Positions 50,375 through 57,374 of a stretch of 60,275 nt of DNA are shown here, in pieces. Under the pieces are notes generated by a model, which saw nothing but the letters and a program-made list of their open reading frames with translations, was not told the origin of the DNA and made no database searches. The DNA lies in the NCBI GenBank assembly GCA_024278275.1, contig JAJRTN010000094.1, positions 1-60,275 on the forward strand. The letters are read 5' to 3'. Origin of the DNA: Candidatus Hydrogenedentota bacterium (lineage in GTDB: Bacteria > Hydrogenedentota > Hydrogenedentia > Hydrogenedentales > JAJRTN01). The position numbers and the translations under genes were made by a program. Each line of letters starts with the position of its first letter. Positions within the stretch are counted from its first letter, which is position 1.

Positions 50375-51493
50375 ATGAAGAAGAGACAAGGCTTTACACT
50401 GATTGAATTGCTGGTGGTCATCGCCATCATTGGTATCTTGGCGGCCATCCTTCTTCCGGCGTTGGCCCGGGCACGCGAGGCCGCGCGCCGGGCGAGCTGC
50501 GCCAACAACCTCAAGCAATGGGGTATCATATTCAAGATGTATTCGGGAGAGAGCAAGGGCTTCTTCCCGGCACTCAGCAAATATAAGATGCAGCCCTGGC
50601 ACAATATCTTGGGCATCGATTCGGAGGCAATCTATCCGGACTACTGGACGGATCCGGCGATCGCCATCTGCCCTTCGGATTCACGGGCCGGTTTCTTGGG
50701 TTAGGCCTGGAAAGTGGAAAACGATTTCCCGGGCATGGTGAGTCGAATCGCCAAATCAACCACGGGAACGGCCATGCAACGGAAGGCTTGTCTTCACAGC
50801 AAGCTTTCAATGCCCGTTTCCTACGCTTATGTTCCCTATATTTCGGTTACCCAATCCCAACTCCTGAGTTGGAATATCCGTGTCTTCTTTTTCGGCATAG
50901 GCATTGGACCCGGTGCCGAGCTGGTTGAAGAATACCCCTCGGGCTCCTTGGGGGTCGTCGACAGCGCATGCGATTACCGGAACGAAATATTGGAGCATAC
51001 CGGCCTGACTTCGACCGGAGAAATCAAGATCTTTCATGTTCAGGGCACGCATGCCGGCGCCCAGACTTCCCTTGATGGCTTCCCGCTGTCTGCCTTCGAC
51101 GACGACGGAGTCACGCCGATTCGGGGCACGTATCCGAGGCTCCGCGAAGGCGCTGAGCGTTTCATGATCACCGATATCAATAATCCCGCCGCTGGGGCAA
51201 AAGGGCAAAGCACCATTATGGCCATGTTCGACGCGTGGTCCAATGGTGAGACATACCAGACTTTCCTCTCCGGGGGTTCCTACGTGGGTACCCTCACCTT
51301 CAACCACATACCCGGCGGTTCAAACGTGCTGTACATGGACGGGCACGTGGAGTTCGTCAAACTAGAACAAAAGCCTCCCATGCTCCTGAAGGGGCTTTCC
51401 CCGACCTCGAATGCCGGATTGGAAATCGGCGCGGGCGACTATCGCTGGACCTTCTGGGAACAGAACATCGGCCACATGGCTGGCTGGGGCTGA
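50375..51493 (+). CDS. DUF1559-type prepilin-like secreted protein (copy 3); in-frame TAG
   Basis: 372 codons from ATG 50375 (GGAGG upstream). [13 protein letters not shown] prepilin leader, then the shared 50-residue block. At codon 110 the frame meets TAG (50702-50704) and goes on as [20 protein letters not shown]. Downstream the family features are all present: [20 protein letters not shown] (compare copy 1), [18 protein letters not shown] and [20 protein letters not shown]. So the gene is complete except for one codon. Split calls would be 50375-50704 and 50714-51493. Strong promoter and a strong terminator frame the gene. Confidence 0.85.
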
Positions 51494-51590: not shown

Positions 51591-51817
51591 CTGTGCCAGC
51601 CCACGCAGGGGAAATGGCATATTCAGTGAAGGGATTGATAACATGCTGAGAACAAGATTCAACATGGCGGGTGCCATGATACGGGTGTCGGCAAGCGCGC
51701 GGGCCCGTCTGCGCGGGTGTCCTTGGAAGCAGGGCGTTTGCAGCGGCGGTGGGCGACGCTTCCCCCGTGGGATAGAGAAATCAAGTGGCGCGTGCCGGTA
51801 TGAATAGGGAAGCCTGC

Positions 51818-53932
51818 ATGTTTAATCTGGGTGTCGATGTTGGCGGAACCTTCACGGACTTGGTCCTCATCAATGAGGAGACCCATGAGATTCTGTACAC
51901 CAAGACATCGTCCACGCCGGGAAACCCCGATGAGGGCGTCATCAACGGCGTACGCAAGGTGATGGCCCAATTTCAAGTTGAGCCACGGTCGCTTCACTTC
52001 ATTATCCACGGCACGACGGTGGCCACGAATGCGCTCATAGAGCGGCGGGGGGCGAAAGTGGGGCTTCTGGTTACACGGGGATTTCGCGATGTGCTCCACA
52101 TCGCCCGCCAAACGCGGCCCAAGCTCTATGACTTCTTCGAGCGCCGTCCGGACCCGATCATTCCGCGTCACTTGCGTTACGAGGTGACCGAGCGAACACT
52201 GCACACGGGCGAGATTCGCGAAGAGCTCAACGAGGAGGAGGTGCGGGCCGCCGTGCGGGAACTCTTGGAGCAGGGGGTGAGCGTGGTGGTGGTGTGTCTG
52301 CTCCACTCCTACGCAAACCCCATGCACGAGCAGCGCATCCGCGAGTTGCTGGAAGAGGAAGCGCCGAGTCTGAAGATCTCGCTGTCCTCCGACATCCTTC
52401 CGGAATTCAAAGAGTACGAGCGAATGAGCACCACGGCCATCAATGCCTATGTGATGCCGTCGGTGGAAAAATACCTGCGGCGGATCATCGAATCCCTGGC
52501 GGGGCTCGGCGTGAAGTCGAAACTCCACATCATGCAATCGAACGGCGGACTGATAACGTGGGAGAACGCCAGCCAGAAGAGTGTGCACACGGTCCTTTCG
52601 GGACCTGCCGCGGGCGTCCTTGGCGCCGTAAAGCTCGCCGAAATGGTGGATGAGCCCAACATCATCACCATCGACATGGGGGGGACCAGCTTCGACGTTT
52701 GCCTGTCGCACCACGGAAAGCCGGCCTTCACCACGGAGAATGAGATTGGGGGGCACGTGATTAAGGTACCCATGATCGACATCAAAACGCTCGGCGCGGG
52801 AGGAGGCAGCATCGCCTGGATCGATCCGGGGGGAGCACTTCAGGTGGGCCCCCAGAGCGCGGGAGCCGACCCCGGCCCGGTCTGCTACGGCCGGGGCGGC
52901 ATGGCGCCCACCGTGACCGACGCGAACCTCGTGCTCGGCTATCTCAACCCAGAGTATTTTCTCGGGGGCAAAATGAAGCTCGACGCGCAAAGCGCCCGGG
53001 ACGCCATCGAGAAGAAGATCGCAGGCCCTCTGGGGCTTGGCGTGTAAGAGGCCGCGGAGGGAATTCTCCGCGTTGTGAACGCCGAGATGATTCGCGGCAT
53101 CCGGCTGGTTTCCGTGGAGCGGGGTTTCGATCCGCGGGACTTCGTACTTCAGTGTTTCGGCGGCGCCGGGCCGGTCCACGCCGTGAAACTCGCCCAGGAG
53201 CTCAGCATTCCGAAGATACTCGTGCCCTACGGGCCCGGCGTCACCTGCGCGCTGGGACTGCTGATGGCCGACTTCCGTCACGACTACTCGCACACCTTTC
53301 TGCGCCAGGTGGCCTCGTTGAAGCCGGAGAAACTGTCGCTCGCATTCGAAGAACTCGAGGCCAAGGCCCTCGGCCAAATGCTGAAAGACGGTGTCCCCGA
53401 GGGCGACGTTCGCTACTCCAGGAGCCTGGATATGCGCTACAACGGGCAAGGCTATGAGCTGGAAATTCACTCGCCCCGCAAGAAATACACGCGCAAAGAC
53501 CTCGACACGCTCTGCGCGGAATTCACGCGGGTGCATGTGGAACAGTATGGCTATGGGATGCCGCAGGACACGGTGGAGGCGGTGAGCCTGAGGCTCACCG
53601 TCATGGGCGTGCTGCCCAAGCCCAACATCGCACGTGAGTCACACAGCGAGACAGACCCGGCACCGGCCTTTAAGGGATGCCGAAAGGCCTACTTCGGCGG
53701 CCAGTGGGAAAGCGTGCCCACCTACGAGCGAACGCGGCTGCACTGTGGCAACCGCATCGAAGGTCCCACCATTATCGAGCAGTTGGACTCCACCACCGTG
53801 GTCTGTTCGGGCTACCGCGCGCGCGTGGATGAGTACAGGAACCTCCTCATCACGCAGACCCGCAACGACGCAAGCCCCCGGGAGGCGCAAGGGTGGGACG
53901 CTGTAGAGGAGGCGCAATTCAGTTCACTCTAG
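51818..53932 (+). CDS. Hydantoinase/oxoprolinase subunit A (HyuA-type); in-frame TAA
   Basis: 704 codons from ATG 51818 (AGGGA seven bases upstream). N-terminal ATP-binding fold NLGVDVGGTFTDLVLINEET, IHGTTVATNALIERRGAKVG, and LYDFFERRPDPIIPRHLRYE. The middle hydantoinase_A domain has SNGGLITWENASQKSVHTVL and IDMGGTSFDVCL. Codon 410 is TAA (53045-53047); the same frame continues EAAEGILRVVNAEMIRGIRL, VERGFDPRDFVLQCFGGAGP, exactly the expected continuation where most homologues have Glu or a similar residue. Partner of the B subunit 46 bases downstream. Family enzymes hydrolyse cyclic amides (hydantoins, 5-oxoproline, acetophenone-type carboxylation) with ATP. Confidence 0.88.
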
Positions 53933-53978: not shown

Positions 53979-55787
53979 GTGGCAAGTATCAAGATTGACA
54001 TGATAACGCTTCAGGTTCTGATAAGCGCGTTCCAGTCCATCACGGACGAGATGAACATGGCCCTTATCAAGACGGCCTACTCGACCAATATCAAGGATCG
54101 GCGTGATTGCTCCTGCGCGGTCTACAGCCCCGGCGGCGAGTCGGTGGCCCAAACGGAGTTGGGCTCTCCCGTGCACCTAGGCATCATGCCCTCCGCGTTG
54201 GATTCTGTTCTGGAGAAGTTTTCTCTCGACGATCTCGAAGCCGGCGACCACATCGCGGTGAATATTCCCTACCCGAAGGGTCCTGGGCATCTGAACGACA
54301 TCACCCTGGTGTCGCCGGTATTCATCGGGGAAAAGGTGGCCTTCCTCGTTGCCAACATGGCCCACCACGCGGACGTTGGCGGTCACGCACCGGGCAGCAT
54401 GGCCCTCGGGCGTAGCACAATCTACCAGGAGGGGGTCCAGATACCCCCGACGAAGCTCGTGAGCCGCGGGCAAATCAACAGGCCCATTCTGGACTTCCTC
54501 AAACAGAACGTGCGCATGGGCGTCGAACTTGAGGGGGATCTCTGCGCGCAGATGGCCTGCAACAATGTGGGTGTGCGGCGCCTGACGGAGCTGGCGGGCC
54601 GCTATGGCGTCTCCACACTGCAGGACTTCACCCAGTACATCTTCCACTACTCCGAGCGGCGGATGCGCGCGGGCCTTCGCAAGGTGCCCAACGGGATCTA
54701 CACGTTCGAGGACGCCATCGAAGGCACCGCCCTAACCCCGCCCAGCATTCCAGTCAAGGTGCGCGTTACCGTGGAGGACGAGGACATCTACTTCGATTTC
54801 ACCGGCTCCTCGCCCCAGGTACGCGACTCGCTCAACTCGAACCTGGCCTGTGTCAACTCCGCTTGCTACTACGTTGTGAAGGTGCTTGTGGATCCCGGCC
54901 TTCCGCCCAATGTGGGATCATACCGTCCCATTCACATCCACGCGCCCGTGGGCACCGTGGTCAATGCGCGCCCGCCGGCGGCCGTCGCCAATGCGACCAT
55001 CATCACCAGCCCGAAAATAGTGGACGTGCTCCTGGGCGCCCTCGTGCCCGCCGTGCCCGAGCGGGGCGCGGCGGCCTCGAACGGGGCCACGAGCATGTTC
55101 AATATCGGAGGCGTTGATCCGGCCCGGGGGGCAATGTATAGCTACGTGGAAACCTATGCGGGCGGGCAAGGCGCCATGCATTCGCAGGATGGCATGGACG
55201 CCGTTCAGTGCCACATGACCAACACGCGCAACGCACCGGTGGAAGTTATCGAGGCCACCTACCCCCTTTTGGTCCTCGGCTATGGATTGGTTCAGGACAC
55301 CGAGGGCCCGGGCCGCTTCCGGGGAGGTCTGGGTATGGAGCGTGACCTAGAGATCCAAGGCGAAGAGACGGTCTTGTCCGTTTCGACGGACCGCTACACA
55401 AAAGGGCCGTGGGGCCTCTTCGGCGGTCAGCCTGGCGGATGCTCGAATGTCCACACCACTAGCCCGGAGGGGGAACGTCAGCGCCTTCCCTACTCCAAGA
55501 TGACCTTTTCGGCGGAGACAGGCAGCCGCATCTCTCTGCAAACGGCTGGGGCAGGCGGCTGGGGCGACCCCTTCACGCGCGACCCCGAGAAGGTCTTGTG
55601 GGATGTCATTGAAGAATTCATTTCCCCTGGACGGGCCGAGAAGGAGTATGGCGTGGCCGTGCGCCGCACCGGTTCCCGGCACTACAAACTTGACCTTGAA
55701 CGCACCCAAGAACTCCGAGCTTCCCGCGAGAAGGAGGGGGCCGGGTTAGCCGACCGACCGCCCTCGGCGGTTACTCCGAATAGATAG
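53979..55787 (+). CDS. Hydantoinase/oxoprolinase subunit B (HyuB-type)
   Basis: 602 aa from GTG 53979, seven bases after GGAGG. Hydantoinase_B motifs: MNMALIKTAYSTNIKDRRDC, SPVHLGIMPSALDSVL, IPYPKGPGHLNDITLVSPVF, MAHHADVGGHAPGSMA and AGAGGWGDPFTRDPEKVLWD near the end. No interruptions. Forms the enzyme with HyuA upstream. If HyuA is inactive because of its internal TAA, this subunit would lose its partner, so the intact state of hyuB argues for a very recent lesion or for readthrough. Confidence 0.93.
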   Translation: MASIKIDMITLQVLISAFQSITDEMNMALIKTAYSTNIKDRRDCSCAVYSPGGESVAQTELGSPVHLGIMPSALDSVLEKFSLDDLEAGDHIAVNIPYPKGPGHLNDITLVSPVFIGEKVAFLVANMAHHADVGGHAPGSMALGRSTIYQEGVQIPPTKLVSRGQINRPILDFLKQNVRMGVELEGDLCAQMACNNVGVRRLTELAGRYGVSTLQDFTQYIFHYSERRMRAGLRKVPNGIYTFEDAIEGTALTPPSIPVKVRVTVEDEDIYFDFTGSSPQVRDSLNSNLACVNSACYYVVKVLVDPGLPPNVGSYRPIHIHAPVGTVVNARPPAAVANATIITSPKIVDVLLGALVPAVPERGAAASNGATSMFNIGGVDPARGAMYSYVETYAGGQGAMHSQDGMDAVQCHMTNTRNAPVEVIEATYPLLVLGYGLVQDTEGPGRFRGGLGMERDLEIQGEETVLSVSTDRYTKGPWGLFGGQPGGCSNVHTTSPEGERQRLPYSKMTFSAETGSRISLQTAGAGGWGDPFTRDPEKVLWDVIEEFISPGRAEKEYGVAVRRTGSRHYKLDLERTQELRASREKEGAGLADRPPSAVTPNR

Positions 55788-55791
55788 GTGC

Positions 55792-55903
55792 CATTTGCGA
55801 AAAGCCATTTTTCAGCAAGACCGCCACATGATCCCGTATGTTGTGGCTCTCCAAGCCACAACATACGGGATGGCACGTAAAAAGATCCCCAATTTCGCAA
55901 ATG
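55792..55903. repeat. CATTTGCGAAA inverted-repeat element, copy 2, with 18-bp hairpin
   Basis: Ends CATTTGCGAAA and TTTCGCAAATG (perfect 11-bp inverted repeats), 112 bp. Inside, 55831-55848 pairs perfectly with 55854-55871 over 18 bp around the loop CTCCA. It lies between hyuB and the mttB-like gene and ends 25 bases before the latter. Related to 2982-3120. Could attenuate or stabilise the transcript, or be a small mobile element. Confidence 0.65.
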
Positions 55904-55928
55904 CCTCGATAGGGAGAGAACTCGCTTT

Positions 55929-57374
55929 ATGGAAGAGTTTGTTGTACGTCCGCGCCTGGTCGTCCTGACCGATTCGCAAATAGGCACGCTGCTTGACGGG
56001 GCGCTCAAGGTGCTGGACAGCACCGGGATTGAGGTCTTGGACCGGGACGCTTTCGTCACGCTGAAACGCATCGGCGCGCGGGTTTCCGGCGAGACGCGCG
56101 TGTTTCCTTCGCGGGCTCATGTGGAGGCGGCCCTGGCCTCGGCGCCCAAGCAAGTCACGATTTTTGATCGTCTAGGCCGGCCCGTCATGCGGCTCGGCGG
56201 CGAGAACACGGGCGGTCTCAACACCTATTACGGGACCGGCTCGGACCTGCGCCATACCTACGACCTGCAAACAGGCAAGCGGCGGCTGACGGTGTCCGCC
56301 GACATCGCCGCCATGGCGACCGTGGCGGACGCATGTGAGCACATTGATTTCCTAATGTCCTACGGGATTCCTTCCGATGTAGACCTGCGGGAAACCTACC
56401 GCCGCGAATTCCTCGAAATGGTCTCTCACGCCACCAAGCCCATCTGCTTCACTTCGGACGACGGACAAGACAGCCGCCACATTATCGCGATGGCCGCGGT
56501 AGTGGCGGGGGGCGCGGAAGCCCTGCGCGAACGGCCCTTTGTGATGAACTACGCACAGCCGACTTCGCCGCTCCAGCACTCGGCCGACGCCATCGGAAAA
56601 GTGTTGGCCTGCGCCGAGGCGGGTGTGCCGGTTTGTTTTCCGCCCGGCCTCATTCCGGGGGCCACCGCGCCCTGCACGGTCGCGGGAGCCGCGACGCAGT
56701 CTTTGGCGGAGTCGCTGTCGATGCTGGTATTGCACCAGGCCCATTCCCCCGGCGCCCCATTCATCGCGGCGGGGGCCCATGGCTGCTTCGACATGCGCAC
56801 CATGGTCAATGTCTACGCCGCGCCGGAGCGCCTTCTTTCGCAGGCGGTGCTCACGTCATTCTATCAGCACGTTGGACTGCCAACGTGGGGCTTTGGCGGG
56901 TGCTCGGACGCGAAATGTCTCGATGAACAGGCTGCCATGGAGTCCGCCCTCCTTGCCCTTTGGGCAGGCTTGACCGGGGTGAACCTGGCGCACGACACGG
57001 GCTATCTCGCCAGCGGGATGGCGGGGGATCTTCGCGCCCTCGTGCTCAACAACGAGATCAACAGTTACGTGCGCCATGTGCTGCGCACTGGTGCGGCCTT
57101 CAACAGCGCGACACGGGCCCTGGACGCCATCAGTCGCGTCGGGCCGGGGGGCAACTTCCTGGCCGATCAGCACACGCTGGAGCACTTCCTCACCGGGCTG
57201 TGGTCTCCCGCGCTTCTGGACCGCGACGCGCTGAGCACCTGGGAGCAGAAGGACGAACCTTCCTTCATTGACAGGCTCACGGCGCAGACCCGGGATATCT
57301 TGGCCGGGCACACGGCTGACCCGTTGCCCGGCGCGATGGCGAGGCGGCTTCGCGACATGGCGCGCGCTGGATAG
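55929..57374 (+). CDS. MttB-family (trimethylamine methyltransferase-like) protein, non-pyrrolysine
   Basis: 481 aa. Family features: LLDGALKVLDSTGIEVLDRD, YYGTGSDLRHTYDLQTGKRR, FLMSYGIPSDVDLRETYRRE, PICFTSDDGQDSRHI, GATAPCTVAGAATQSLAESL, GLPTWGFGGCSDAKCLDEQA and GPGGNFLADQHTLEHF. It has no in-frame TAG, so it belongs to the larger group without pyrrolysine; characterised members demethylate quaternary amines such as glycine betaine. No corrinoid protein gene is adjacent. Downstream of hyuAB on the same strand, so the three may treat N-methylated cyclic compounds in sequence; that is inference. GGGAGAG lies upstream of the ATG. Confidence 0.88.
   Translation: MEEFVVRPRLVVLTDSQIGTLLDGALKVLDSTGIEVLDRDAFVTLKRIGARVSGETRVFPSRAHVEAALASAPKQVTIFDRLGRPVMRLGGENTGGLNTYYGTGSDLRHTYDLQTGKRRLTVSADIAAMATVADACEHIDFLMSYGIPSDVDLRETYRREFLEMVSHATKPICFTSDDGQDSRHIIAMAAVVAGGAEALRERPFVMNYAQPTSPLQHSADAIGKVLACAEAGVPVCFPPGLIPGATAPCTVAGAATQSLAESLSMLVLHQAHSPGAPFIAAGAHGCFDMRTMVNVYAAPERLLSQAVLTSFYQHVGLPTWGFGGCSDAKCLDEQAAMESALLALWAGLTGVNLAHDTGYLASGMAGDLRALVLNNEINSYVRHVLRTGAAFNSATRALDAISRVGPGGNFLADQHTLEHFLTGLWSPALLDRDALSTWEQKDEPSFIDRLTAQTRDILAGHTADPLPGAMARRLRDMARAG

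Follow-up and report, generated by a model that had tools for sequence, protein, structure and literature searches.

A single in-frame TAA in the hydantoinase A gene of a draft Hydrogenedentota genome is probably an ordinary nonsense change or an assembly error

When a single stop codon lies within an otherwise well-preserved bacterial gene, is the codon recoded or read through, or is the gene simply broken in the organism or in its assembled sequence? This question is raised by hyuA, which encodes one of the two parts of an ATP-dependent ring-opening enzyme, on contig JAJRTN010000094.1 of Candidatus Hydrogenedentota bacterium; the window analyzed here is the whole of this contig (60,275 nucleotides; contig 56 of its assembly), and the assembly to which it belongs is a draft of 5.35 Mb in 200 contigs with 96.2% completeness and 1.7% contamination. 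The frame of hyuA extends over positions 51785–53932 of the plus strand and is interrupted by TAA at 53045–53047, which is codon 421 when counted from GTG at 51785 and hence separates residues 420 and 422. The part before the stop (51785–53044) is an open frame of 420 amino acids from that GTG, while the true start is probably ATG at 51818, given that homologues begin at residue 12–13. The part after the stop (53048–53932) contains 294 open codons and ends with a natural TAG.

On both sides of the TAA, the domains of a HyuA-type A subunit are found in the expected order: namely, Hydant_A_N (201 bits) and the first 209 of the 291 positions of Hydantoinase_A (262 bits) before the stop, and Hydantoinase_A from position 212 (81 bits) followed by Hydant_A_C (101 bits) after it. 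Because the Hydantoinase_A match leaves off at position 209 and resumes at 212, the TAA is accompanied by neither a frame shift nor a larger lesion. The two parts also agree in GC content at third codon positions (0.78 upstream of the stop and 0.80 downstream). The first-pass annotation had named the two genes hydantoinase A and hydantoinase B, placed an in-frame TAA at these positions, and described the flanking sequence and the downstream hyuB as undamaged; translation, the Pfam matches, the continuous profile match, and the unchanged GC content bear out each of these points. Indeed, hyuB (53979–55787, plus strand) encodes an intact protein of 602 amino acids with a full-length Hydantoinase_B match, and its GTG start is preceded by its own GGAGG seven bases upstream. 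With the TAA, hyuA is not a single uninterrupted frame, and no second copy of hyuA that might substitute for it was found in the genome.

To see what homologues carry at the column of the stop, the read-through hyuA frame (with X at the stop) was searched by tblastn against 45 loci with homologues. The closest homologues, from Clostridium sp. and Chloroflexi/SAR202, were 52–58% identical over nearly the full length, and Glu (GAA or GAG) occupied the column in 12 of the 14 closest, with Tyr and Leu in the other two. The motif given in the first-pass annotation was found in this alignment, where homologues read LG(L/M/I)-(T/S/G)-V-E-E-A-A-E-G-I, and GAA, one of two codons it had named for this position, is indeed the likeliest original codon. 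More distant homologues have Asp, Val, Ala, Ile, Leu, Ser, and other residues here, and conservation of the column is moderate, not strong. A stop codon was present at the column in none of the homologues aligned from the 45 loci; those spanning the column are uninterrupted there, and a stop common to related species, as in a conserved readthrough gene, was thus not observed among them. In one of the loci searched, that of Clostridia bacterium UC5.1-1D2, hyuA is split over two frames and hyuB over three, probably by indel errors in that assembly.

The first-pass annotation had implied that a full-length HyuA might still be made, and the sequence offers two routes to such a product. In one, a real TAA would be read through at a low level, giving a little full-length HyuA, as Belinky et al. 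2021 argue in general terms from the finding that in-frame stops of many bacterial genes are under purifying selection (PMC7918605). The undamaged frame downstream and a stretch able to form a hairpin 3' of the TAA are consistent with this, but a recent mutation or an error equally predicts an intact frame, and the RNA downstream folds no better than shuffled sequences (z = −0.99), with 12% of synonymous recodings folding equally well; a programmed readthrough structure was accordingly rejected. No Rfam family was matched anywhere in the window. TAA is, moreover, generally a tight stop in bacteria. Together with the lack of the stop in every homologue aligned, these observations make low-level readthrough very improbable. 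In the other route, translation would restart at GTG 53075 and yield a functional HyuA in two pieces. An SD-like GGAGG at 53056–53060, 14 bases upstream of this GTG, and the open frame of 285 amino acids that follows would suit such a restart, but the GGAGG stands farther from the GTG than usual and is predicted to lie in a stem of the hairpin. The cut also splits Hydantoinase_A itself, 209 positions into the 291 of its profile, and no homologue spanning the column is split there; we hence regard a functional two-piece HyuA as even less probable than readthrough.

A further possibility is that this organism reads TAA, or TAA together with TAG, as an amino acid. In the 2.75 Mb examined, however, TAA ends 297, TAG 348, and TGA 642 of the 1287 long reading frames, so that TAA is still in use as a terminator. 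Also, 41 places were found by a covariance search for tRNA, among which ARAGORN called 38 distinct tRNAs, and none of these 38 reads UAA, UAG, or UGA, although an assembly that is 96% complete may lack such a tRNA. On the normal terminator use and this tRNA set, recoding of TAA was rejected. With no suppressor tRNA among those called, a stop retained in no homologue, unremarkable folding downstream, and at least 16 other genes interrupted in a similar way, the implied full-length HyuA is left unsupported.

Those other genes were sought in 2.75 of the 5.35 Mb as stops flanked by coding sequence on both sides. A first scan by coding score gave 114 candidates, most of which were gene pairs or mimics in other frames, and was replaced with a scan that combined scoring in six frames with Pfam spans and BLAST searches of paralogues; cases were confirmed by a Pfam domain across the stop, by alignments with solved structures, or by uninterrupted paralogues or homologues. 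At least 17 genes with one in-frame stop and intact flanks were found (7 TAA, 9 TAG, and 1 TGA), and this number is a lower bound because the scan is blind to genes with neither paralogues nor Pfam domains. TAA interrupts hyuA, an M3 peptidase (L120), an AP_endonuc_2 protein (L113), two sulfatases (L097 and L215), a ComB-like phosphatase (L152), and a GFO_IDH_MocA protein (L173); TAG interrupts a tyrosine recombinase (L095), a sulfatase (L149), a carbamoyltransferase (L105), two prepilin-like proteins (at 50702 in the window and L186), a nucleotidyltransferase-like protein (L222), and three others (L221, L210, and L115); and TGA interrupts priA (L116). The evidence is weaker or of a single line for L173, L221, L210, L115, and L113. 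Of the first five genes found with TAA, three had GTG before it, a pattern that was dropped because the later cases L215 and L173 were without it.

In 16 of these at least 17 genes the stop is TAA or TAG, though TGA is the commonest terminator, and several of the stops align with Glu or Gln, which might be taken to favor reassignment. Codons for Glu and Gln, nonetheless, rank among the commonest one-step neighbors of TAA and TAG, and single-base changes at the codon usage of this genome are expected to give 5.0 TAA, 8.7 TAG, and 3.3 TGA, from which the observed 7:9:1 does not differ significantly (p = 0.32, or 0.11 under a transition bias of 3). The spectrum of stops thus fits random one-base changes. 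Most conserved genes, furthermore, have no in-frame stop, and together with the terminator counts and the tRNA set this makes reassignment scarcely credible, the least probable of the readings considered here. A lineage whose termination by release factor 1 is unusually leaky might alternatively tolerate TAA and TAG, with hyuA and other genes giving some full-length protein; we consider this very improbable as well.

The frequency of internal stops was compared with that in related genomes. Here, inner stops occurred in 2 of 64 sulfatase, 1 of 67 GFO_IDH_MocA, and 0 of 65 ABC matches, and four other genomes from this order had none in 134 sulfatases and none in the roughly 150 GFO_IDH_MocA matches listed. 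For sulfatases and GFO_IDH_MocA proteins combined, the 3 of 131 in this genome versus 0 of about 285 in its relatives (Fisher p about 0.03) is no more than suggestive of an excess. As for individual cases, the in-frame TGA of priA (L116:18801, contig 196, minus strand) separates the 3'-DNA-binding domain from the helicase domain, and since priA is hard to lose, this TGA is a candidate assembly error. In the nucleotidyltransferase-like gene (L222:5407, contig 134, minus strand), TAG occupies the Asp position of the conserved NGCFD-LH-GH motif, and an Asp codon is two bases away from TAG.

We therefore favor, with a probability of roughly 0.9, the reading that the TAA of hyuA is a single-base nonsense change, being either real, as a recent mutation that abolishes function or a polymorphism among strains, or else a base-calling or consensus error in a draft metagenome assembly. 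Given that close homologues have Glu (GAA or GAG) in this column, one G-to-T change in an ancestral GAA codon, as we infer it to have been, would suffice to produce TAA, and the lack of a frame shift together with the unchanged GC content past the stop means that the change is either recent or not real. If it is real, translation would end at the TAA with a product of 409–420 amino acids (about 409 from the likely start), which would lack the C-terminal domain and the last part of the ATPase domain and thus presumably be inactive. HyuB, with its own ribosome-binding site, would then be left without a partner. Between the two forms of this reading, the excess of stops over sister genomes and the stop in priA lead us to lean toward assembly error over pseudogenes, and strain mixture is a possible source of the internal stops.

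The genes around hyuAB also merit description. Directly upstream is a prepilin-like gene (50375–51493, plus strand) with an H-X9-DG motif and an in-frame TAG at 50702–50704, which is crossed by alignments of 13 paralogues or homologues in the 2.75 Mb examined. Downstream of hyuB is a gene for an MttB-superfamily methyltransferase (55929–57374), the only one in the genome and without an in-frame TAG. A conserved hyuAB-mttB operon was considered and rejected, as only one homologue locus, a distant one, has an MttB relative nearby. The interval from hyuB to the MttB-family gene holds a dispersed, MITE- or REP-like element of about 128 bases (55785–55912), which contains a perfect 18-bp inverted repeat (55831–55848 and 55854–55871) and has 48 matches at about 40 places in the genome.

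The case of hyuA serves mainly as a warning that one in-frame stop in a draft genome does not amount to evidence for recoding, and the numerous internal stops of this assembly need checking against reads before they are interpreted. Should the TAA of hyuA be real, the one enzyme of the HyuA/HyuB family in this organism has been lost.

In terms of known systems, the best NCBIfam matches of HyuA and HyuB are CapA and CapB (NF050156 and NF050157) of the caprolactamase from Pseudomonas jessenii, a two-subunit ATP-dependent enzyme (PMC8453981). Since both proteins are subunits of that enzyme, HyuB would probably be inactive by itself. The two halves of HyuA score 439 and 188 bits against CapA, and HyuB scores 279 bits against CapB, all far below the curated cut-off of 1000 bits for these equivalogs, and we therefore claim neither the substrate nor membership; CapA is, in addition, uninterrupted, unlike HyuA here. 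Among solved structures, the best relatives of HyuA are N-methylhydantoinase (PDB 7hk5) and 5-oxoprolinase (PDB 6yra), whose alignments run from residue 12–14 to 683–690 straight across the TAA with an amino acid at its column in both, while 7hk5 is a single fused chain of 1288 amino acids, unlike the separate hyuA and hyuB. Like the genes described by Belinky et al. 2021, hyuA has a single stop within an otherwise intact gene, but in the cases trusted there the stop is common to several species (PMC7918605), whereas that of hyuA was present in no other sequence examined. Cooley and Wright 2024 tied excess internal stops to assembly errors (PMC11017572); the putative pseudogenes of that study were verified by reassembling the reads, whereas ours is seen in the assembly sequence, but they share with it single internal stops, intact flanks, and an excess over related genomes. 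The stop in hyuA is nothing special in this genome and is most likely an ordinary one.
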